From positions 1-22,273 of the IMG/VR virus record IMGVR_UViG_3300027987_000462: a stretch of DNA of 22,273 nucleotides; one strand, given 5' to 3'. Source of the stretch: a virus. Made by a program: the position numbers and the translations under genes. The notes under the pieces were generated by a model that ran no database searches, was not told where the DNA came from, and saw nothing but the letters and a program-made list of their open reading frames with translations. Position 1 is the stretch's first letter; the number at the start of each line of letters is the position of its first letter. This document shows, one piece after another, positions 7,635 to 21,738 of the stretch.

Positions 7635-8065
7635 TCGCCAGGGATGAGATCCTCGCCGAGGCGCGCTCTTGGATTGGAGAGCGCTGGCGCCATCAAGGAC
7701 GCGGCCCCCGCGGGCGCGGTGTCGATTGCGGCGGCGTGATCGTCTGCGTCGCTCAGGGTCTTCAGATCAGCAACTACGACATCAGCGGCTATCGTAGGAT
7801 GCCTCCGACGCGCACTGCATTCCTTGAGCACTTCGAGCAGAACATGATGCGCCTCTCCGCGCCGGTTCCGGCCGCTGTCGGGGTGTTCCGGAATGAGACC
7901 ACTGTCATCCACTGCGGCATCTTTTCGGAGAAGTACGGCCGTCTCCACATCATAGAGGCGAACGCATCGATCGGACGGGTCATCGAGGCTCAGCTGACGA
8001 AGGAGCAGCGATCGACTCTGGTCGGCATCTTCGACTATCCGGGGGTCGAGCCTTGGGCCGGGTAG
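7631..8065 (+). CDS. NlpC/P60 tail peptidase (GTA g14-like)
   Basis: 144-residue cysteine peptidase of the NlpC/P60 type, matching the tail-tip peptidases that nick peptidoglycan cross-links during entry. The nucleophile is Cys33 in RGVDCGGVI. The general base is His94 in VIHCGIF, and the polar third element lies around His106-Glu109 in LHIIEA. The N-terminal helix EILAEARSWIGERWRHQG has the usual 'A..w.G.py.hqG' form. GTG 7631 overlaps the previous stop as GTGA. The length is normal for the stand-alone tail form. All expected active-site positions are present, so the enzyme looks functional. The cytosolic protein has no signal peptide, as expected for a virion component. Confidence 0.92.
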   Translation: MIARDEILAEARSWIGERWRHQGRGPRGRGVDCGGVIVCVAQGLQISNYDISGYRRMPPTRTAFLEHFEQNMMRLSAPVPAAVGVFRNETTVIHCGIFSEKYGRLHIIEANASIGRVIEAQLTKEQRSTLVGIFDYPGVEPWAG

Positions 8066-11000
8066 CCGTCACTGCGGTAGGCACGATCGCCGGTGCTCTG
8101 ATCGGATCTCGCTTCGGAAACGCCCAGCTCGGTGCGCAGATCGGCGCAAGCGTCGGCGCGCTCGCCGGCGATGCGCTCTTCCCGCCCGACCCGACGGTAA
8201 TCCGTGGGCCACAGATCGGCGATCTTCTGGACTCGGGAGCAGACTACGGCACCCCGATCCCGATCTCGTACGGCACCACGCGAATACCCGGACAGCTGAT
8301 CTGGGCACAGACGCGCGTGATCGAGACGGAGACGGAGTCCGGCGGCAAGGGCAGCAGCGAGCCGACCACCATCAGTCGATTCGAGACTGCGTTCGCCGAC
8401 GTCGCATACTCCTTCGGCGAGGGCCCAGCAGACGACATTCTCCAGCTGTACCTGAACGGTCAGCTCGTGTTCGACAAGACGCCGGGCCCGATCACGATGG
8501 ACATCGGGATCACGTTCCGCTTCTACCCTGGCGACGAGGAGCAGCTCCCTGATCCTCTGATCGAGTCGGTCGAGGGTGTAGGACGCACGCCGGCCTACCG
8601 CGGCCAGGTCATCGTGGTGATCCCAAACCTCGAGCTGACGCGATTCGGAAATACTGTTCCCAAGCTGGTGGAGGCTCTGATCGCGAAGGCGTCCACGCCT
8701 GCGACGGCTTCGCTGAGCCTTACCCGCATTTCCTCATTCGGTGCTCAGGACGATGAAAGATACCCAGACTTCCTGCGGGGTTTCATCTACTCGAGCGGAA
8801 CCGACGGCGTCAACTACTACATCGCACGCTTCCGCCTCTCAGATCTGGTCGAGGACAGGTTCGTCACGTTCGCAGGGCTGACGGCGGTCGAGATTCGCGC
8901 CGTGCTTCCGACTGGTGAGCTCTTCGTAGAGCACTCTCCGTCCTATCGGATCGTGGATCCGGTCTCGTTCGTGACGCGATACTCGTTCCCGCGGTCTGGA
9001 ACGGGCACGTTCTCCACCACGACGTTCGGACTGATGGGCAGCGGCGGTCGGGCGGATGTAATGTCTGCCGTCGGCCCTAAGGGACTCGTCCAGTTCATCA
9101 TGGTGACCTCGTCCGTAGCATCGACGAAGATCGGACTGCTGCGCTTCGGTCTCGAGGAGAAGCCCCTATTCGGAGACGTGCAGGAGCTATCCTACCTGTT
9201 CATCGCGACGCTGCCTGCTGGCATCTCTACGTTCGGTTGCTGTGCTGGTTTCCCGGCTGCGGGCCTCTCGTTCGGGTACGTGTTGGCCGGCAGCCTGACC
9301 ACGGGCGTCTACCTCGTCAAGCTGACGGTGTCTGCGATCGCGCAATACTTTGCCGATCTCGATCTGACGACAGGCGTGATCGTCAACTCCTTCTCGAACG
9401 TCGCTCCCGGTGACATCGTCTCCGGGGAAACGACCTTCACCAGGATTCGCGGTCTCACCTTCGACGAGACCGATGGCAACGTGATCCTGGGCGTCGGATA
9501 CGCTGGAGATCAGAGCAAGGACTATCTGGTCAAGCTGTCCACGAACGACGGCTCAATCATATGGGTCACGAAGGTGTCGGCGGTTCCGCCGATCGCCATG
9601 CAGAATCACTCGCGCTTGCAGAATGGCACCTATGGCGTACTGGGCGCCGCGTCATTCCAGAGCTACGTGATCGACACGACGACGGGGGACTTCCTCGAGC
9701 AGCGGACCATCGGAGGCGTCAACTTCACGTCGCAGTTCTACGATTCTAGGACTGCTCTCGTATACGGAAGCACTCCTCTCCAGGCTCACTCCTTCTTCCG
9801 TCGCTCTGGAGATGGCGAGCTTCTCTCTGACGTGGTGACGGATCTGTGCCTTCGCGCCGGACTCGACGCTTCCGAGATCGACGTCAGCCAGCTCACGGAC
9901 ACGGTCCGAGGTCTGGCCATCGCGCGTCAGACCTCGGTGAGGTCTGTGCTCGAGATCTTGCAGGGGGCCTACTTCTTCGACTCGATCGAGACCGACTACA
10001 AGCTGAAGCACGTGAAGCGCGGCGCAGCGTCGGTGGCCACGATTCCTGAAGACGATCTCGCAGATGTGGACGGATCCAACGTCCTGCCGGAGAGCAGAGA
10101 GCAGGAAGCCGACCTGCCCAAGCGGCTCTTCCTGCGCTACCTGGACGCCGACAAGCAGCAGATCCCCAACACGGCCCAGTCTCAGCGCATCGGTCTACCA
10201 AACCGAGCGTCGGTGACGACCCGATCCGAGATCACTGTGGACATCCCCCTGGTGCTCACGGCGCAGGAAGCGAAGCGGATCACCGAGCGCCGACTATACG
10301 CTGCGTATGTGGGCCGAGTGAGCTTCGCGGCTCGCACGCCATGGAAGTACCTGGCGCTCGACCCATCGGACGTCGTGACCATCAACATGGCTACGGTCAG
10401 CCGGCTCGTGCGGATCCGTCAGCTGTCAGTGGGGAGTCCCGGATTCGCCCTCGAGATGGGTCTCGCTCAGGAAGATGCGCCCGTCTACACCAGCGGCGCC
10501 CTGGCCGACGCCGGAGACGGGGCTCCGTCCCAGACCTTCGCCTACCAGGGCGCGAGCAAGCTCTTCGTGCTGGACATCCCCCTCCTACGCAATGGCGACG
10601 AAGCGGGTCCGGCGTCGTCTCTGCGGTACTACGCGGGCAGCTTCTTCCAGGACGGCATCAACTGGCCTGGCATGACGGTCTTCCAGTCTGTCGACGACCA
10701 GGTCGGCACACCGATCGTCTCGATCCTGTCGCGTTCGATCTGGGGCTCTGCGGTGACGGCGCTTGCTGCGCCTGCCTCGCCTTTCCGGACGGACGACGTC
10801 AACTCCGTGACCGTATCTATCGCTGTAGGCTCCGACGATCTGGCAAGCGCAACGCAGGACGATCTCTACAACGGAGCAAACGTCGCGCTCCTGGGCGAAG
10901 AGATCATCCAGTTCGGGGACATCACCGACAACGGCGATGGAAGCTTCACGCTGTCGCGTCTGCTGCGTGCCCGTCGCGGTACGGACCCCTTCGTCGGAAT

Positions 11001-11502
11001 CCACGCGGCCGGTGACCTGTTCCTTGTGCTCACAACGTCCACGGTCAAGCTGGGACTGACCCAGATTCCCGATCTCGGTCGCTCTTTGTTCTTCCGCGGG
11101 GTGACGCGAGGCACGGTTCCGATCCGGACTCCGGCCGAGGTCTTCGTGCTGGAGGGACGCGACCTGAAGCCGTATGCCCCGGTCTTCCCGACCCGAGCCG
11201 ACAACACGCCTTCCTCTGGAGACATCACGCTGGGTTGGACGCGCCGCAGCCGCCTTGGAGGCGGCAGCCTCAGCGTTTCGCCGCAGCTTGCCGAGGCAAC
11301 CGAGGCGTATGAGGTGGACATCCTCTCCGGAGCTGGCGGCACCCTGAAGCGCACGCTCACCGCGACCACCAACTCGGTCGTCTACACGGCCGCCAACATT
11401 TCTACGGACTTCGGTTCGACGCCGTCGCCACTCTACTTCCGGGTGTACCAGATCAGCGCTGTGGTCGGTCGCGGCTTCGCCTCGGAAGAGTTCGCGCTAT
11501 AG
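8053..11502 (+). CDS. Large tail tip hub / host-specificity protein (GTA g15 'megatron'-like)
   Basis: 1149 residues, the expected last member of the tail-tip block. The TTG at 8053 lies in the end of the peptidase gene with GGGGG seven bases upstream; no better start occurs nearby. Domains: a Gly-rich hydrophobic segment (about 5-45) like lambda gpI-type N-termini; a conserved hub segment with YGTPIPISYGTTRIPGQLIW (about 74-93) and TPAYRGQVIVVIPNLELTRF; an insert at about 220-582 that looks like a beta-propeller; the hub core with LLSDVVTDLCLRAGLDASEI and then a block typical of the Phage_tail_3 domain (about 587-720); and a C-terminal fibronectin-like domain (about 1055-1149). I see no TIM-barrel domain of the kind found in the gene transfer agent protein. 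It probably contacts the receptor and guides membrane penetration. Confidence 0.88.
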   Translation: MGRVAVTAVGTIAGALIGSRFGNAQLGAQIGASVGALAGDALFPPDPTVIRGPQIGDLLDSGADYGTPIPISYGTTRIPGQLIWAQTRVIETETESGGKGSSEPTTISRFETAFADVAYSFGEGPADDILQLYLNGQLVFDKTPGPITMDIGITFRFYPGDEEQLPDPLIESVEGVGRTPAYRGQVIVVIPNLELTRFGNTVPKLVEALIAKASTPATASLSLTRISSFGAQDDERYPDFLRGFIYSSGTDGVNYYIARFRLSDLVEDRFVTFAGLTAVEIRAVLPTGELFVEHSPSYRIVDPVSFVTRYSFPRSGTGTFSTTTFGLMGSGGRADVMSAVGPKGLVQFIMVTSSVASTKIGLLRFGLEEKPLFGDVQELSYLFIATLPAGISTFGCCAGFPAAGLSFGYVLAGSLTTGVYLVKLTVSAIAQYFADLDLTTGVIVNSFSNVAPGDIVSGETTFTRIRGLTFDETDGNVILGVGYAGDQSKDYLVKLSTNDGSIIWVTKVSAVPPIAMQNHSRLQNGTYGVLGAASFQSYVIDTTTGDFLEQRTIGGVNFTSQFYDSRTALVYGSTPLQAHSFFRRSGDGELLSDVVTDLCLRAGLDASEIDVSQLTDTVRGLAIARQTSVRSVLEILQGAYFFDSIETDYKLKHVKRGAASVATIPEDDLADVDGSNVLPESREQEADLPKRLFLRYLDADKQQIPNTAQSQRIGLPNRASVTTRSEITVDIPLVLTAQEAKRITERRLYAAYVGRVSFAARTPWKYLALDPSDVVTINMATVSRLVRIRQLSVGSPGFALEMGLAQEDAPVYTSGALADAGDGAPSQTFAYQGASKLFVLDIPLLRNGDEAGPASSLRYYAGSFFQDGINWPGMTVFQSVDDQVGTPIVSILSRSIWGSAVTALAAPASPFRTDDVNSVTVSIAVGSDDLASATQDDLYNGANVALLGEEIIQFGDITDNGDGSFTLSRLLRARRGTDPFVGIHAAGDLFLVLTTSTVKLGLTQIPDLGRSLFFRGVTRGTVPIRTPAEVFVLEGRDLKPYAPVFPTRADNTPSSGDITLGWTRRSRLGGGSLSVSPQLAEATEAYEVDILSGAGGTLKRTLTATTNSVVYTAANISTDFGSTPSPLYFRVYQISAVVGRGFASEEFAL

Positions 11503-14988: not shown

Positions 14989-16461
14989 GTGCCGATCCGC
15001 TTCCTTCCCGTAGAGGAGAGGCCACGCCTCCCGCGCAAGCCGTTCATCCCGATCGAAGAGGCGGGCGGCGGCGTCACGGTCACGGGGAAGCCGGCGGTCT
15101 CCCTCGAGGCGGGGCAGAGCGGCACACTGACGGCGCCCGCGGTCGCGACGGGCACGGCTGCTGCGCACATCTCGTCGGGCCCCGCTGGCTCCCTCGCGGC
15201 GGCGGCCACTCTCAGCGGTACGCCCGCGCCCTCGATCTCGTCCGGACGTAGCGGTAGCGCGACGGCCGCAGCCCTGTTGGACGGGACGCCGGCTGCCGAG
15301 ATCTCCTCCGGTCCGTCCGGCAGCGCGACCGCAGCGGCATCGCTCACGGGCACCCCGGCGTCCGCGTTCTCGGCGTCCGTCGGTGGAGCCCTGAGCGCAG
15401 CCGCGACTCTGAGCGGAGCTGCGGCGGCCGAGATCAGCGCGGGTGCCCCTGGCGCTGCGACGGCAGCTGCGATCCTCAGCGGTACCGCCGCGGTTGCGCT
15501 CGAGGTCGGCCCCAACGGCACGCTCTCGATCGGCGCCGTGCTGGTGGGCACCCCCGCGGCCTCCATCTCGGTTGGTCCCTCGGGCGCCGCCACGGCCGCC
15601 GCGCTGCTCGCGGGCACCCAGGCCGCGGAGATCTCCGCGGGTCGCGCCGGCGCGCTCACGGCCGCTGCGCTCATCTCGGGCACGCCAGCGGTCTCCATCT
15701 CCGTCGGACCGAACGGCACGATCTCGGTCGACGCCGGGAACGTGACCCTGACGGGCACGCCAGCGGTGGTCATTTCGACTGCAGCGGCGGGTGTCCTGCT
15801 CGCGGCGGCGGTGCTCGACGGCACGCCCGCGAGCGAGATCTCGGTGGGGCAGGGCGGCGGCCTGGCCAGCGCTGCGCTCCTCGTGGGCCCGGCAGCGGCC
15901 GAGTTCGTCGCTGCGCTCGGTGGCAGCACCACCGCGCCGGCGGTGGTCGTCGGTACGCCCTCCGCGGAGATCTCCCAGAGCCGCGGCAGCATCGTCATCA
16001 CCGGGCTCCCGATCAGCCTCGGCACCACGCTCGCGCGCGATCGGGACTTCTCCGTCCCCGCTCGAACGCGCGTCTACACCACCGTGGCCCGGGATCGCGG
16101 CTACTCGACTCCCGCTAGGGACCACACGGCCGGAGGATCGCCGTTGTCAGCGATGCCTGAGACCTTCGAGAAGCGCCCGGACGAGGACTACACCCGCGAT
16201 TTCGACTTCACGGGCAAGCTCACTGCCGGTCGTACGGTCGCATCCGCCGTGCTCAGCGCGTTCGACCTGTCCGACGGCAGCGATGTCTCCGGCTCGGTGC
16301 TCTTCAGCACCACCGCCACCGTCGCGCACCCCAACGTCTTCTATCGGGTTCTGGGCGGGGCGATCTCCAAGACCTATCGGATCGAGGCGGAGGTCACGCT
16401 CGACAACGGCGAGACGGTAGAGGAGGTGATCCTCATGAAGGTCGTGGAGTACCCGAGCTGA
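14989..16461 (+). CDS. 22-residue-repeat protein fused to a fibre-tail adaptor-like domain
   Basis: 490 residues, starting at GTG 14989 with a run of six G nine bases upstream. Region one (1-31) is Pro/Arg-rich. Region two (32-337) has thirteen tandem 22-residue repeats (one with a 3-residue insertion) plus a partial copy, consensus GTPAAxISxGPSGxxTAAALL. Region three (349-379) has three 9-residue units ARDRDFSVP, ARTRVYTTV, ARDRGYSTP. Region four (about 386-490) contains FEKRPDEDYTRDFDFTGKLT and ends with GETVEEVILMKVVEYPS, an Ig-like phage domain usually found as a separate small protein linked to fibre attachment. The period suits a beta-solenoid or fibrous stalk, so a stalk joined to a tail adaptor is inferred. 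An internal start may also give region four alone. Confidence 0.8.
   Translation: MPIRFLPVEERPRLPRKPFIPIEEAGGGVTVTGKPAVSLEAGQSGTLTAPAVATGTAAAHISSGPAGSLAAAATLSGTPAPSISSGRSGSATAAALLDGTPAAEISSGPSGSATAAASLTGTPASAFSASVGGALSAAATLSGAAAAEISAGAPGAATAAAILSGTAAVALEVGPNGTLSIGAVLVGTPAASISVGPSGAATAAALLAGTQAAEISAGRAGALTAAALISGTPAVSISVGPNGTISVDAGNVTLTGTPAVVISTAAAGVLLAAAVLDGTPASEISVGQGGGLASAALLVGPAAAEFVAALGGSTTAPAVVVGTPSAEISQSRGSIVITGLPISLGTTLARDRDFSVPARTRVYTTVARDRGYSTPARDHTAGGSPLSAMPETFEKRPDEDYTRDFDFTGKLTAGRTVASAVLSAFDLSDGSDVSGSVLFSTTATVAHPNVFYRVLGGAISKTYRIEAEVTLDNGETVEEVILMKVVEYPS
15082..15999 (+). repeat. 66-bp tandem coding repeats (13 full copies plus one partial)
   Basis: Units begin with a [TSDVA]-G-T-P-A-like turn and end with an A-A-x-L-like strand. 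Copies 1-9 and 11-13 are exactly 66 bp and the tenth is 75 bp. The partial fourteenth copy covers 15949-15999. Copies differ widely at DNA level, so this is an old, diverged array and not a recent slippage product. Confidence 0.88.
16132..16461 (+). promoter_or_regulatory. Internal ribosome binding site and candidate nested start
   Basis: GGAGG at 16132-16136 lies seven bases before an in-frame TTG at 16144, and an ATG follows at 16153. Use of TTG 16144 would give a 105-residue protein equal to the complete C-terminal adaptor-like domain. That domain is normally encoded by its own small gene, so a nested product is plausible. The signal is better placed than those of several real starts nearby. 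Confidence 0.55.
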
Positions 16462-16805
16462 TGCCCGAAACCATCGCGCAGCTCATCAGCGCCGGAGCCG
16501 CCGGGATCATGGTGGTGGCCTTCTGGATCTTCACCAAGAACCAGCGTGAGCAGAACGACGCCTTCATGAGGCACCTCGCGGAGGAGCGCTCCCATCGGGA
16601 ACGCATGGCCGAACGGTGCCACGAGCACGCGACTCTCGAGTCCGAGAAGACGCGCGCCGTAGTTGATCGTTCGACAGCACAGAACGAGAAGCACGCACTG
16701 GTGCTCGGAGAGGTCTCGACCCACCTGAGCGCATGCGCAGAGCAGACGAAGCAGCTCGAGCGGACCATGAGATTGCGTTCCGCGAACGGAGGTCAGTCGT
16801 CATGA
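16461..16805 (+). CDS. Membrane-anchored coiled-coil protein (inner-membrane spanin- or holin-like candidate)
   Basis: 114 residues. ATG 16461 overlaps the preceding stop by one base. One N-terminal membrane segment (about 5-24, IAQLISAGAAGIMVVAFWIF) is followed by a positively flanked polar helix with coiled-coil character to about residue 105 and two cysteines (Cys54, Cys92). This resembles the architecture of inner-membrane spanin subunits, and its position at the start of the membrane/lysis section supports this. A holin or a simple membrane anchor is also possible. The expected partner, a small Pro-rich outer-membrane lipoprotein with a lipobox, is not visible nearby or nested in another frame. 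GGAGGT at its 3' end (16788-16793) serves the next gene. Confidence 0.6.
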   Translation: MPETIAQLISAGAAGIMVVAFWIFTKNQREQNDAFMRHLAEERSHRERMAERCHEHATLESEKTRAVVDRSTAQNEKHALVLGEVSTHLSACAEQTKQLERTMRLRSANGGQSS

Positions 16806-17545
16806 TGAATCACAGCACGCGGCCCTTGGGTTCGTCGCGCCCTCGAGGACCGAGCGGACCGGTCCACGGCATGGCCCGTGACGGTGCCGGCACCGCAGGC
16901 ACGGTGGCAGCCCTCCTGGGCACCGCAACGGCTCTGGGTGTCGTCGATCTCGACGCCCAGCAGATCGCGCAGATCTCCGGACTGGCTGGTGTCGCCGCTG
17001 GCGGCTTCGTCGCCGCCGGCAAGGACTTCCGCAACTTCCGCCACGAGGGCCGAGGGGGTCTGTTCCCCTGGATGGGCTCTTGGCTCTTCCGCACCCGCCT
17101 GATCCCGCTGATCCTCGTCTTGGGGTTCGCGGCGCAGGCCTCCGCCCAGACCTACGTCCAGGAGTACACCTTCTCCGTGCCGGAGCCGGCGGCCAACGCT
17201 GACAACCCGGCCACCGACCAGGTGGACGAGAGCACGGTGCCCCTCGCGGACCTCGAGTCGATCGAGCTCGTGATCCGCAGCGGCGGTGCAGACATCTACA
17301 CGGACACTCAGCCCGCCACGGGACCCGGTGGCGGTGGGACCGTGGACTTCACGGTCACACTTTCGCCGGGGGTCTACGAGGTGTTCGCCACGGCCTGCTC
17401 CAGCGCGGGGCGTTGCTCGATCGAGGCCGGAAGCCCAGCGAACCCCTTTGTCGTGCAGGCGCTCCAGCCGATCCCGTTGCCTCCAGGCTCGATCCTCGTC
17501 GTGCCCGGGCCGGCGATCCTGACGCTGCCTCCGCCGGGCCCCTGA
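16802..17545 (+). CDS. Exported/membrane protein: holin-like N-terminus plus secreted domain
   Basis: 247 residues from ATG 16802 (GGAGGT eight bases upstream; overlaps previous stop). The N-terminal part has two moderately hydrophobic segments, about 31-48 (TAGTVAALLGTATALGVV) and 55-73, resembling a small phage holin. A third segment starting at Met91 looks exactly like a cleavable signal peptide: GSWLFRTR, a hydrophobic core LIPLILVLGF, then AQASA|QT with an Ala-x-Ala site. Residues 116-225 form a fibronectin-like domain ending VYEVFATACSSAGRCSIEAG. The C-terminus PIPLPPGSILVVPGPAILTL nearly repeats the C-terminus of the next gene. Either it is a three-segment membrane protein with a periplasmic domain, or Met91 (17072) starts a separate secreted product. 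Function unknown. Confidence 0.6.
   Translation: MMNHSTRPLGSSRPRGPSGPVHGMARDGAGTAGTVAALLGTATALGVVDLDAQQIAQISGLAGVAAGGFVAAGKDFRNFRHEGRGGLFPWMGSWLFRTRLIPLILVLGFAAQASAQTYVQEYTFSVPEPAANADNPATDQVDESTVPLADLESIELVIRSGGADIYTDTQPATGPGGGGTVDFTVTLSPGVYEVFATACSSAGRCSIEAGSPANPFVVQALQPIPLPPGSILVVPGPAILTLPPPGP
17052..17074 (+). promoter_or_regulatory. Possible internal start for the secreted half
   Basis: GAGGGGG at 17052-17058 precedes ATG 17072 by 13 bases. The spacing is long, but GGGG/CCCC (17055-17058 with 17065-17068) could fold and shorten it. The ATG opens a perfect signal peptide. Confidence 0.35.
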
Positions 17546-17546
17546 C

Positions 17547-18302
17547 GTGCGCTGGCTTGTCGCTGCCGTCTTGGCTCTGCTGACTCCGCAGGGCAACTAC
17601 GTCCTGGAGTTCCAGCTCACGAGCCCCGCGTCCGCCGATGTGAGCACGTGCCAGGTGTACCTGCCTGGTCAGCCGCGGCTGACCGTACCCGCGTCTCCGC
17701 CCGCCGGCCAAGTGTTCGTCTACGCTCCGGCCGACGAGTGCGCAGCGCTCAACGCGACCGAGCTGTGCGCCGTGTGCGTGTCCGACACAACTGGGCTGGA
17801 GAGCGTGGAGTCATGCTCTCCCATCCCGCTCGCATCGATCCAGGCGGCCAAGACGCAGCTCGCGGCCGGCTGCGCGACTCCACCGCCACCACCACCGCCC
17901 CCTCCGCCCGCTGGCTGCGCGACCGGCTCTCCCGTGGTGGAGGTCTCCGGCCTCCCCGATACGATCCTCTACACCCCCTCCTGCGGCGCGAGCTCATGCG
18001 AGGGGCGGGTCTACAGCCCGACCACTCTCGTGGTCCAGGTCGATGATCCGGGTCTGACCGGCGTGGTCGATCTCACGGGCGCGGACCTTGCTCAGCTCCG
18101 CCTGGGCACGGTCGCCGCCGTGAAGTGCTTCGACCCGACGGGGCTCGTGATCCCGCAGACCCGACTCGACTTCGACTTCGCGGCTGCGCTCACTCCCAAG
18201 CCCCAGCCTCCGCCGCCGCCACCGACCCAGGCGCCGGAGCCGATCCCGCTGCCCACGGGCCAGATCACCGTGACGCCCGGCCCGGTGCTCGTGTTCCCGT
18301 GA
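17547..18302 (+). CDS. Secreted proline-rich protein sharing a C-terminal motif with its neighbour
   Basis: 251 residues from GTG 17547, one base after the previous stop and without a clear ribosome binding site, so coupled translation is likely. Residues 1-14 (MRWLVAAVLALLTP) form a short signal-like segment. Then come a fibronectin-like domain (about 17-92, ending CAVCVSDTTGLESVESCSP), a ten-proline linker (about 112-121), a second Cys-containing domain (about 122-215), a PPPPPP linker and a C-terminus PIPLPTGQITVTPGPVLVFP. The first domain and last 20 residues resemble the preceding protein, so they look like paralogues. Several cysteines (among them CQVYL, DEC, LCAVC, SCSP and the domain-two Cys) suggest disulphides outside the cytoplasm. 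Envelope modification or superinfection exclusion is possible; no family recognised. Confidence 0.66.
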   Translation: MRWLVAAVLALLTPQGNYVLEFQLTSPASADVSTCQVYLPGQPRLTVPASPPAGQVFVYAPADECAALNATELCAVCVSDTTGLESVESCSPIPLASIQAAKTQLAAGCATPPPPPPPPPPAGCATGSPVVEVSGLPDTILYTPSCGASSCEGRVYSPTTLVVQVDDPGLTGVVDLTGADLAQLRLGTVAAVKCFDPTGLVIPQTRLDFDFAAALTPKPQPPPPPPTQAPEPIPLPTGQITVTPGPVLVFP

Positions 18303-18796
18303 GCGCACCGGCGCCAACAGCCGATCCACCCAGCCGGGAGGAGCTCTGCCTGATGGCGGGCGCGTACGCGCGGCGTCTCGCGGGCCCCTACGAGGATCCA
18401 GACGACGTCGCCCAGGACGCCGCCATCCGCGTATTGGGCGCCCCGGATCGCGCCTCGCCTCGAGACTGCGCCTACTGGGCCGTCAAGGAGGCGCGCAGGG
18501 TCTCCTTCCGTCAGCCCGTCGTCGTCCGCTCTCTCACCGGCCAGACGTCCGGCGAGGAGCGCTTCGGGGAGGACGATCCCAGCCTCGATCAGGACGACCG
18601 AGTCCGCACCGTGCTGAAGCAGCTCCGGCCCGACTGGCGCGAGTCCCTCGAGCAGACGGTCATGGCGGACCGGCCGGTCGCAGAGTACGCCCGGCGGATC
18701 GGCCGGCACCACAAGACCATCGAGGATCGGGTCCGCAGGGCGAAGCGTGCCTTCGAGGCAGCCTGGATCCGCATGGAGCATCCGATCTCGAGGTGA
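18299..18796 (+). CDS. Phage ECF-like sigma factor
   Basis: 165 residues starting at GTG 18299, which overlaps the previous stop as GTGA. Region-2-like sequence runs from LCLMAGAYARRLAGPYEDPD to DVAQDAAIRVLGAP (about 16-50), with the typical 'D.eDv.Qda.irv' signature, followed by the helix YWAVKEARRVSFR. Region-4-like sequence is VLKQLRPDWRESLEQTVMA and then RPVAEYARRIGRHHKTIEDR (about 105-145), with a helix-turn-helix resembling sigma-70 region 4. There is no long region 3 or C-terminal extension. It should direct host RNA polymerase to selected promoters. Its position inside the late operon suggests feedback on late genes or delayed control of another set. Sigma-like regulators lacking true promoter activity cannot be excluded. 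Confidence 0.75.
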   Translation: MSAPAPTADPPSREELCLMAGAYARRLAGPYEDPDDVAQDAAIRVLGAPDRASPRDCAYWAVKEARRVSFRQPVVVRSLTGQTSGEERFGEDDPSLDQDDRVRTVLKQLRPDWRESLEQTVMADRPVAEYARRIGRHHKTIEDRVRRAKRAFEAAWIRMEHPISR

Positions 18797-18800
18797 GCCG

Positions 18801-19583
18801 ATGGCCGACGAGCGCTCGATCCCGTGCCCGACGTTCGCAGGGATTGCGCTCGCCCTCTGCTGGGCCGGCTCCCTGGTCTGCGCGCACTCGTGCGGCCGGC
18901 ACCAGGTGCAGGAGTGCATCCGGGTCTACCTGCCGAAGATCGTGCCGAAGCCGACCCGGCTCAGGGAGGCGAGCGTGCCCGTAGAGTGTTTCTGGCTCGA
19001 GCCCACCGACCGGATCAAGCTCTACCTGCGCAGGTACGCCTCTGGCTCGAAGTGCCCGGGCACCGATGGGTACCACCACGCCCGCAATCACGTCGGCCAG
19101 GAGCAGGCGCGCTGGTCGGGGGAGGGCGCGAGCCGCAGGCTCATCGAGCCCGCCGTCGAGATCCCCAGGACCTTCCCCCACTGGCCCGCGCAGTGTGCGG
19201 CGTGTGGCTACCGCTTCCAGGACACCGACGAGTGGCAGCTCTTCCAGGAGCTGATCTACACGCGCGCGGACGGGGGAGGGGAGACGACGATCCGCGACGC
19301 CCCGCCGGGCGCGATGTGGGACGCCTGGTGGTACCCCTGGAAAGGCCCGGACGGCCGATCGCTCATGGTGAAGTGCCCCGATGGGCACGACTGGTCGATC
19401 GACAGCCGGGCGAGCAACTGCACGCTACCGAACGACACCGAGCACCGATGCTGGCTGCGTACCGGTGAGCCGCCGCGGATCACTGTGAGCAAGGCCGGGC
19501 CGGGACGCACGTGCTCGGCCGGCGGAGGCTCGATCGGGACCCCCGGCTACCACGGCTTCCTGCGGGACGGGTGCTTCACGTGA
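18801..19583 (+). CDS. Conserved cysteine-rich phage protein, function unknown
   Basis: 260 residues from ATG 18801, with GAGGTGA at 18790-18796 upstream. Residues about 11-30 form a hydrophobic segment with Cys20, Cys27 and Cys31 but no good lipobox. A possible zinc site is CAAC at 132-135. The C-terminal two thirds carry strings I recognise from a widespread but unnamed phage family: LYLRRYASGSKCPGTDGYHH (75-92), APPGAMWDAWWYPWKGPDG (167-185), WSIDSRASNCTLPNDTEHRC (198-217) and SAGGGSIGTPGYHGFL (239-254). Fourteen cysteines in total. I do not know the biochemical role. The stop overlaps the next micro-ORF as GTGA, so it shares a translation unit with the lysis genes. Confidence 0.78.
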   Translation: MADERSIPCPTFAGIALALCWAGSLVCAHSCGRHQVQECIRVYLPKIVPKPTRLREASVPVECFWLEPTDRIKLYLRRYASGSKCPGTDGYHHARNHVGQEQARWSGEGASRRLIEPAVEIPRTFPHWPAQCAACGYRFQDTDEWQLFQELIYTRADGGGETTIRDAPPGAMWDAWWYPWKGPDGRSLMVKCPDGHDWSIDSRASNCTLPNDTEHRCWLRTGEPPRITVSKAGPGRTCSAGGGSIGTPGYHGFLRDGCFT

Positions 19584-19636
19584 TCTGGTGGCGCCGGATC
19601 TGGAACTGGCTCTGGCCTGAAGGCGTGCCCGCGTGA
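19580..19636 (+). CDS. Tryptophan-rich 18-residue micro-ORF
   Basis: GTG 19580 overlaps the upstream stop as GTGA, and its own stop at 19634-19636 overlaps the GTG of the lysozyme gene in the same way, so it is bracketed by two four-base overlaps. The predicted peptide MIWWRRIWNWLWPEGVPA has five tryptophans, two adjacent arginines and an amphipathic first half, resembling membrane-active Trp/Arg peptides. It has no obvious independent ribosome binding site. It could be a membrane-disrupting lysis accessory, a leader that couples translation of the lysozyme, or only a chance junction. The double overlap makes chance less attractive. Confidence 0.5.
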   Translation: MIWWRRIWNWLWPEGVPA

Positions 19637-20406
19637 CTCTCCGGCGCCTCGACCAGGGCCGCCTGGTTTCCGAGCTCCAGCGCGACCTCCGCGCGGTCGG
19701 CGGCCACCTGGTGGTCGACGGCTGCTTCGGCCCCGAGACCCAGACCGCGGTGAAGATGTACCAGGCGAGCTGCGGCCTCGAGGCGGACGGGATCGCGGGC
19801 CCGCGCACCTTCGCCTCGCTCGCGGCCGACCTCGAGGCGCGCAACGTGGTCGGGCTCCAGTTCTTCCGCGGGCGCCTGGGCTTCATCGTGGCGCACGAGG
19901 GCTTCCGGAGCCGCCCCTACTGGGACACCGGACGCCACTCCGGGGTCACACTCAGCTACGGCCTGGATCTCGGCCACCAGAGCGTCCAGGGCGCCCAGCG
20001 AATCCTGCGGGACGTGCTCGGGCCCGGCCAGATCAAGATGCTCGAGCCGGCGGTCGGCCTGAAGGGCCCGGACGCGGGTGCGCTCTGCGACGGCGTCGGG
20101 ATCGGCTCGATCGAGCTCACTCGCTCCCAGGCGGCGCGGATCCTGGCGCGCGCGGCGCCGGCCTACTGGGGACGCGTCGAGGCGGCCTGCCCGGAGATCC
20201 TGCGCCCGCAGGTCCCGGACGCGGTCCACACCGCCGTTCTCGACCTGGCGTACAACCGGGGCCCCGCGCCTGTGCGCCCGCTACGCAGCCTGATCGTCGA
20301 GCGCAACTGGCCCGCGCTGGCCTCGGTGATCGGCTCGATGCAGCAGGATCACCCGCTCGAGGGCGTCCGCGCTCGCCGGCGGGCGGAGGCGGATCTCCTG
20401 GCCTGA
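19633..20406 (+). CDS. Endolysin: peptidoglycan-binding domain plus lysozyme-like domain
   Basis: 257 residues from GTG 19633. Residues about 6-66 are a peptidoglycan-binding domain (PF01471 type) with LVSELQRDLRAVGG and VDGCFGPETQTAVKMYQASC, then ADGIAGPRTF. The catalytic part (about 80-250) resembles T4-type lysozyme (GH24 class): Glu89 in FIVAHEGFRSRPYW, Asp98 nine residues later and Thr106 in VTLSYGLDLGH line up with the T4 Glu11/Asp20/Thr26 triad, with two extra residues before Thr. A late DLAYNRG block matches the 'sfvfNvG' region of the family. There is no signal peptide or SAR segment, so release to the wall needs a holin. It cleaves the glycan strand of murein. It is the last gene of the rightward operon. 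Confidence 0.92.
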   Translation: MTLRRLDQGRLVSELQRDLRAVGGHLVVDGCFGPETQTAVKMYQASCGLEADGIAGPRTFASLAADLEARNVVGLQFFRGRLGFIVAHEGFRSRPYWDTGRHSGVTLSYGLDLGHQSVQGAQRILRDVLGPGQIKMLEPAVGLKGPDAGALCDGVGIGSIELTRSQAARILARAAPAYWGRVEAACPEILRPQVPDAVHTAVLDLAYNRGPAPVRPLRSLIVERNWPALASVIGSMQQDHPLEGVRARRRAEADLLA

Positions 20407-20958: not shown

Positions 20959-21738
20959 TCACCCCTCGCATTCTACGATCCCCTGCGCCTCCGCCCACTG
21001 TCGCCAGCTCCCGGGCCGAGTCTTCGTCGCCCGGCGCCAGAGACCCTCGACCTTCACCAGGTTCGGCCGCGAGTTGTCCTCGAGAGCGATCGCGCGCGCC
21101 AACAGGTCCGGGTGCCGCGCCTGGAGCTCGAGCAGCTCCTCGGGCTTGCTCGCCGGGCAGAAGAAGCACGCCGACTTCGGCGGCACTGGCAGGCCCTCGG
21201 CCGCGATCTCCCGCTCGCACCGCTCCCGGTCCCATCCCCAGTCCCGCAGCGGATACCAGTAGCGGAAGCGCCTGTCCTCGACCCGCCCCACGGCGCGCCG
21301 CGAATCGCGCGGGCCCGCGTCGTACCCGATCGCCTTCACCGGCTTCTCGCCGGCCGCCCAGGTCGCGCGGGCGAGGTCGTCGCCGGCGAGCCAGCGGTCC
21401 ATGGGCTCCGCCTTCCACTTCAGCGAGCAGGACTTTCGGCCGAAGGCCAGCGAGGGCAGCGTGCGGTTCTGGAGGCAGTTCCCCTCGAGCGTGCTGTACC
21501 CCGGACCGGTCTTGCTAGGCCGCGACTTCGGACGCCGCACGATCGTCACCTCCGGGAAGTCCTGGTACAGCAGCCACTTCCCGAACCGCTCGATGTAGTC
21601 GTATGTCTCGGGCTTCTCTCCGCCCGTGTCGGCGAATAGGATCCGGTCGGGGCGGATGTCGCGCCGCACGAATCCGATCAGCATCGCGGTCGAGTCGACG
21701 CCACCGCCGTAATTCGCGATCAGCATCCGGGCGGTCAC
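20959..21738 (-). CDS. PAPS-reductase-like PP-loop protein
   Basis: 259 residues from GTG 21738, overlapping the previous stop as GTGA. The N-terminal PP-loop is YGGGVDSTAM (10-19), a variant of SGGxDS used for nucleotide alpha-phosphate chemistry. It is followed by ILFADTGGEKPETYDYIERF (33-52). A cysteine set comprises Cys88, Cys104 (RKSCSLKWK), Cys174 and Cys191/Cys194 (KSACFFCPASKP), plausibly for a metal or Fe-S site. The sequence matches the phage branch of the phosphoadenosine phosphosulfate reductase / adenine nucleotide alpha hydrolase superfamily, distantly like DndC. Its reaction in phages is not established; sulphur or nucleotide transfer to DNA or RNA is a reasonable idea. No catalytic region is missing. 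Confidence 0.85.
   Translation of the reverse strand: MTARMLIANYGGGVDSTAMLIGFVRRDIRPDRILFADTGGEKPETYDYIERFGKWLLYQDFPEVTIVRRPKSRPSKTGPGYSTLEGNCLQNRTLPSLAFGRKSCSLKWKAEPMDRWLAGDDLARATWAAGEKPVKAIGYDAGPRDSRRAVGRVEDRRFRYWYPLRDWGWDRERCEREIAAEGLPVPPKSACFFCPASKPEELLELQARHPDLLARAIALEDNSRPNLVKVEGLWRRATKTRPGSWRQWAEAQGIVECEG

Follow-up and report, generated by a model that had tools for sequence, protein, structure and literature searches.

Translational Coupling and Small Lysis Proteins

A well described way of linking the synthesis of neighboring gene products is termination-reinitiation coupling via 4-nt NTGA overlaps (Huber et al., 2023, PMC10666635; Brown and Wade, 2025, PMC12548453). The −4 nt overlap is by far the commonest coupled arrangement, and in reporters made from E. 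coli gene pairs reinitiation is down by 80–100% once the gap is 38 nt (PMC10666635). The subject of this work is a tryptophan-rich micro-ORF which shares with these systems a GTGA at both ends and the position of a short ORF before a gene of the same operon. It differs from them in that its arrangement is found at chance frequency, and that it is here known from sequence alone.

Two other groups of known peptides and proteins are relevant. One consists of short Trp/Arg-rich antimicrobial peptides, of which HRWWRWWRR-NH2 has been studied by modelling on E. coli outer membranes (PMC9916935). The micro-ORF product is likewise Trp-rich and short and has a pair of arginines; unlike these peptides it has only two Arg and one Glu, is encoded in a phage spacer, shows no homology to them, and is known only as a reading frame. 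The other group is formed by the small phage holins, pinholins and single-gene lysis proteins. Like some genes of this group the micro-ORF adjoins an endolysin gene, but its product of 18 residues has no segment of transmembrane length, and holin-like proteins are seen by inspection elsewhere in the same DNA (16461–17545).

The interpretation which we prefer is that the 49 nt between the two flanking genes are probably an ordinary spacer carrying the Shine-Dalgarno (SD) site of the lysozyme gene, and that the Trp-rich frame is open in it by chance.

The Window and the Genes Around the Micro-ORF

The window, that is the whole stretch of DNA analyzed, is a virus record of 22,273 bp with 67% GC. 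It carries a tail module (with an rcc01698-like tail protein), a sigma-factor-like gene, an ORF at 18801–19583 and a lysozyme gene at 19633–20406. The sigma-factor-like gene (18188–18796) lies just upstream of the lysis region and codes for a phage sigma-70/ECF-like factor (Sigma70_r2, E 2.8e-5; TIGR02937, E 4.8e-8). On the opposite strand a PAPS-reductase-like auxiliary gene is found at 20959–21738 (PHROG 424, E 1.2e-30). By inspection the frame at 16461–16805 codes for a membrane protein that has one helix and a coiled coil, and that at 16733–17545 is a hydrophobic ORF with holin-like segments; neither is named by a family match. From their sequences these two are likely to be the real lysis membrane proteins of the phage.

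The upstream ORF (18801–19583, plus strand) codes for an N-terminal hydrophobic segment followed by the C-terminal domain of a widespread uncharacterized phage family with a weak Pfam match to DUF6527. This match (E 0.0053) was obtained with one of five aligned family members, and a Pfam search with the window's own protein gave none. Relatives of residues about 55–260 are present in at least 177 IMG/VR contigs, and the C-terminal domain is also common to phages of Burkholderia and Rhizobium. The relatives terminate at the motif HGFLxxGxFT or no more than a few residues from it, and the stop at 19583 is thus where the family naturally ends. Several of the relatives adjoin, as judged by eye, lysis-type genes which are amidase-like, holin-like or spanin-like (e.g., the loci L176, L195, L198, L206, L211, and L213).

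The lysozyme gene (19633–20406, plus strand) codes for an endolysin with an N-terminal PG_binding_1 domain (PF01471, E 2e-14) and a C-terminal lysozyme-like domain. Matches to Phage_lysozyme and Pesticin were sub-threshold, whereas PHROG endolysins were matched, and the protein is 37–38% identical to proteins from Desulfoluna. The gene has no earlier in-frame start, because there is a TGA at 19618–19620 and no start codon between this and the GTG at 19633.

The micro-ORF (19580–19636, plus strand) runs from the GTG at 19580, read as Met, to the TGA at 19636 and codes in 18 codons for MIWWRRIWNWLWPEGVPA, which has five Trp. Together with the preceding codon the DNA reads CAC GTG ATC TGG TGG CGC CGG ATC TGG AAC TGG CTC TGG CCT GAA GGC GTG CCC GCG TGA. 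At its 5′ end the overlap is GTGA at 19580–19583, in which the stop codon TGA of the upstream ORF is 19581–19583; at its 3′ end it is GTGA at 19633–19636, where the lysozyme gene opens with GTG ACT. The micro-ORF thus overlaps both the upstream stop and the downstream start, as is expected of a coupling leader. A first-pass annotation had pointed to the five Trp in 18 residues and to the exact fit between the two genes, and both are borne out by sequence and coordinates. The open frame itself is real; what we do not consider a real feature is the selected peptide that was claimed for it.

Two SD-like sites are of interest. One, the weak site GGGACGGG (19564–19571, plus strand), lies inside the upstream gene 8 nt before the GTG of the micro-ORF; its duplex with the anti-SD is −6.5 kcal/mol, a value not out of line with those of other genes here. 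The other, AAGGCGTG (19620–19627, plus strand), lies inside the micro-ORF, has AAGG at 19620–19623, and would serve the lysozyme gene with −4.5 kcal/mol and a spacing of 5. The site of the micro-ORF is at least as good as that of the lysozyme gene. No significant RNA fold was found at the spacer (z-scores 0.77, −1.02, and −0.50), and a search for tandem repeats in it gave none.

A Probably Fortuitous Frame in a Spacer

The preferred interpretation can be put as follows. The spacer would supply the ribosome-binding site of the lysozyme gene (AAGG, 19620–19623), and in GC-rich DNA the Trp-rich frame would have stayed open by chance. For the two GTGA overlaps nothing more would be needed than a TGA stop after a G and a GTG start before an A, both of which are common. 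Some of the ribosomes that end the upstream gene may reinitiate at the GTG at 19580, so that small amounts of peptide are made, but selection would act neither on this product nor on its sequence.

We favor this because bridging frames of this kind occur at the chance rate, the lysozyme gene has an SD-like site of its own, the coding signal is neutral, and no homologue was detected. Counting against it are the rarity of the Trp, a synonymous log-likelihood ratio (LLR) which lies nearer to the in-frame mean, and an SD-like site in front of the micro-ORF which is not inferior to that of the lysozyme gene. On balance we infer that the micro-ORF has no function.

The Double Overlap

The double four-base overlap had been taken as a sign of selection for translation. 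To judge such overlaps we counted, in the loci retrieved, gaps of 20–150 nt that are flanked by ORFs of 120 aa or more. Single stop-start overlaps are frequent, on the 5′ side in 169 and on the 3′ side in 132 of the 560 gaps. Under independence about 7–9 gaps are then expected to be bridged by an open frame with overlaps at both ends (169/560 × 132/560 × 1/3 for frame match × about 0.7 for being open), and five were found. It should be noted that many of the ORF pairs in this set are mechanical, which means that the set gauges sequence chance and not real operons; this is the relevant null. Bridging by a double overlap is no more frequent than chance, and as evidence for selection it fails. 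The case shows that NTGA-bridged micro-ORFs arise readily in GC-rich phage spacers, and double overlaps alone should not be read as a sign of selection.

Another small frame with this anatomy is a hydrophobic ORF of 51 aa (L020:3040–3194). It overlaps each of its neighboring ORFs by 4 nt, its locus also carries a peptidoglycan-binding gene, and as a small membrane gene it is more plausible than the Trp-rich frame.

The count bears directly on the hypothesis that the micro-ORF is a coupling leader. Ribosomes coming from the upstream gene would restart at the overlapping GTG, read through the 18 codons, and restart once more at the GTG of the lysozyme gene, with the peptide as a by-product. The exact 4-nt overlaps at both ends and the weakness of the lysozyme SD site agree with such a role. 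As judged from the reporter data (PMC10666635) a gap of 49 nt is too long for direct coupling, so the lysozyme gene would need a relay if there is any coupling to the upstream gene, and would otherwise depend on its own SD site. This requirement keeps the leader alive as a possible, if somewhat doubtful, role for the micro-ORF and makes it the chief rival of the preferred interpretation. Against it are the bridging frames, which are no commoner than chance, and the SD-like site which the lysozyme gene has for itself.

Tryptophan Content and Peptide Properties

The tryptophans were compared with chance in different ways. Dinucleotide shuffling of the gap gave five or more in-frame Trp in 0.015% of cases, and for 49-mers drawn at random from the window the figure was 0.025%; when reading this rarity per ORF (p about 2e-4) it has to be remembered that the micro-ORF was singled out among the oddest features of the whole window. 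Among 3,034 start-stop pairs of 14–24 codons in 330 kb of phage loci with 62–72% GC the micro-ORF is the only distinct case with a Trp content of at least 5/18. As 22 kb contain about 200 such pairs, we calculate a chance of about 4–7% of meeting one Trp-rich case per window. The Trp excess is real per ORF, yet nothing ties it to function.

The first-pass annotation had likened the product to membrane-active peptides and proposed a small lysis peptide. A Trp/Arg-rich product might have a role at the membrane, such as that of a small helper of the holin or endolysin, and for this there is the precedent of the antimicrobial peptides (PMC9916935), the location next to the lysozyme gene, and a composition, five Trp in 18, which is indeed rare. 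By inspection the polar residues R5, R6, and N9 lie on one side of a helix. The net charge is only +1, and the hydrophobic moment at 100 degrees, 0.537, is nothing unusual for a peptide of this composition, being no better than that of permutations of the same residues (p 0.25). A transmembrane segment of about 15–20 residues is absent, the longest uncharged run being the seven residues IWNWLWP between RR and E, and the searches made gave no homologues. A small lysis peptide is a possible product of this frame with no positive support beyond composition, and we regard it as unlikely.

One may also combine the two ideas and let the translated 18-residue peptide be both a ribosome relay into the lysozyme gene and a minimal membrane accessory in lysis. 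We know of no description of such a peptide class in endolysin cassettes. If real, it would rank among the smallest peptides associated with phage lysis and at the same time be a relay ORF carrying coupling across the gap; we find the combination very unlikely.

Coding Signal

The codon statistics of the micro-ORF are neutral to faintly favorable. Its frame has an LLR of −2.8 bits for full codon usage and of −1.9 bits for position-base composition. For synonymous choice the LLR is +1.9, to be compared with an in-frame mean of 3.0 and an out-of-frame mean of −1.8, which gives an in/out likelihood ratio of about 1.5, in a test that has little power on 17 codons.

The other two frames of the spacer (19584–19632, plus strand) suggest a further explanation, that the 49 nt are left from a longer frame and that the Trp frame is its out-of-frame shadow. 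The longer frame would have been either a Gly/Ser linker in frame 0, in which the upstream gene reads SGGAGSGTGSGLKACP past its stop, or, in frame 1, a part that once extended the N terminus of the lysozyme; this frame reads DLVAPDLELALA before the stop at 19618. By codon usage frame 1 (LVAPDLELALA) scores best, with +4.3 bits for 11 codons, though it is no plausible gene; the positional bias of frame 0 is poor (−6.8). The upstream gene stops where its relatives do, and the PG-binding domain of the endolysin begins near the present start, as it does in its relatives. A remnant of this kind is most improbable, and the chance frame in an ordinary spacer is still the reading we prefer.

Search for Homologues

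In three pattern scans of 2.9 million viral contigs (IMG/VR) no related micro-ORF was seen among the matches listed. The pattern ATG-I-W-W-R-R-I-W gave one chance match, inside another gene, and [AG]TG-(I/M)-W-W-R-R-x-W gave three further matches, all within longer ORFs in another frame; the strict patterns together thus gave four loci, each of them another gene read in a different frame. With the loose pattern WWRRxWxW most of the matches among those listed look like out-of-frame Gly-rich tail-fibre repeats. Frame 0 of the spacer DNA is likewise Gly/Ser-rich, which speaks for a chance frame here too.

Searches with the peptide itself were equally negative. A tblastn search of INPHARED with a 41-residue extension of the peptide and a phmmer search of the PDB gave nothing, both being weak tests for so short a peptide, and a 21-residue stretch containing it matched no PHROGs family up to E 10, a test which is weak at such length.

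We also looked at the neighborhoods of related genes. The 77 relatives of the upstream gene all lack a comparable Trp-rich micro-ORF that would span the distance from their stop to the next gene, and no Trp-rich micro-ORF is found in front of the lysozyme genes at two Desulfoluna loci or in front of the genes at 29 loci with a related peptidoglycan-binding domain. In none of the relatives examined do a DUF6527-like gene and this lysozyme gene lie side by side; the neighbors differ. As the gene pair is not retained at any of these loci, the absence of the micro-ORF from them does not refute the frame.

With the single lysozyme protein as query no close relative was found among the viral contigs, and with an alignment of three lysozyme sequences the match was limited to the peptidoglycan-binding domain. 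Plasmids gave no lysozyme relatives, and bacterial genomes gave the two Desulfoluna proteins. Where relatives of the tail protein at 8053–11502 (32–37% identity) occur, the lysis regions are different. The lack of homologues is weak evidence, because no close relative of the window was found in the collections and very near records may be missing from them.

The matches listed for WWRRxWxW include three unrelated small phage ORFs which end in very similar C-terminal tails, AWWRRLWRWMREQP (L098:1560–1781), RWWRRLWRWWRGR (L070, minus strand, about 5133 in reverse-complement coordinates), and SWWRRVWRWIRARIQ (L052, about 8325–8440). These may be amphipathic tails that bind membranes and have arisen by convergence.
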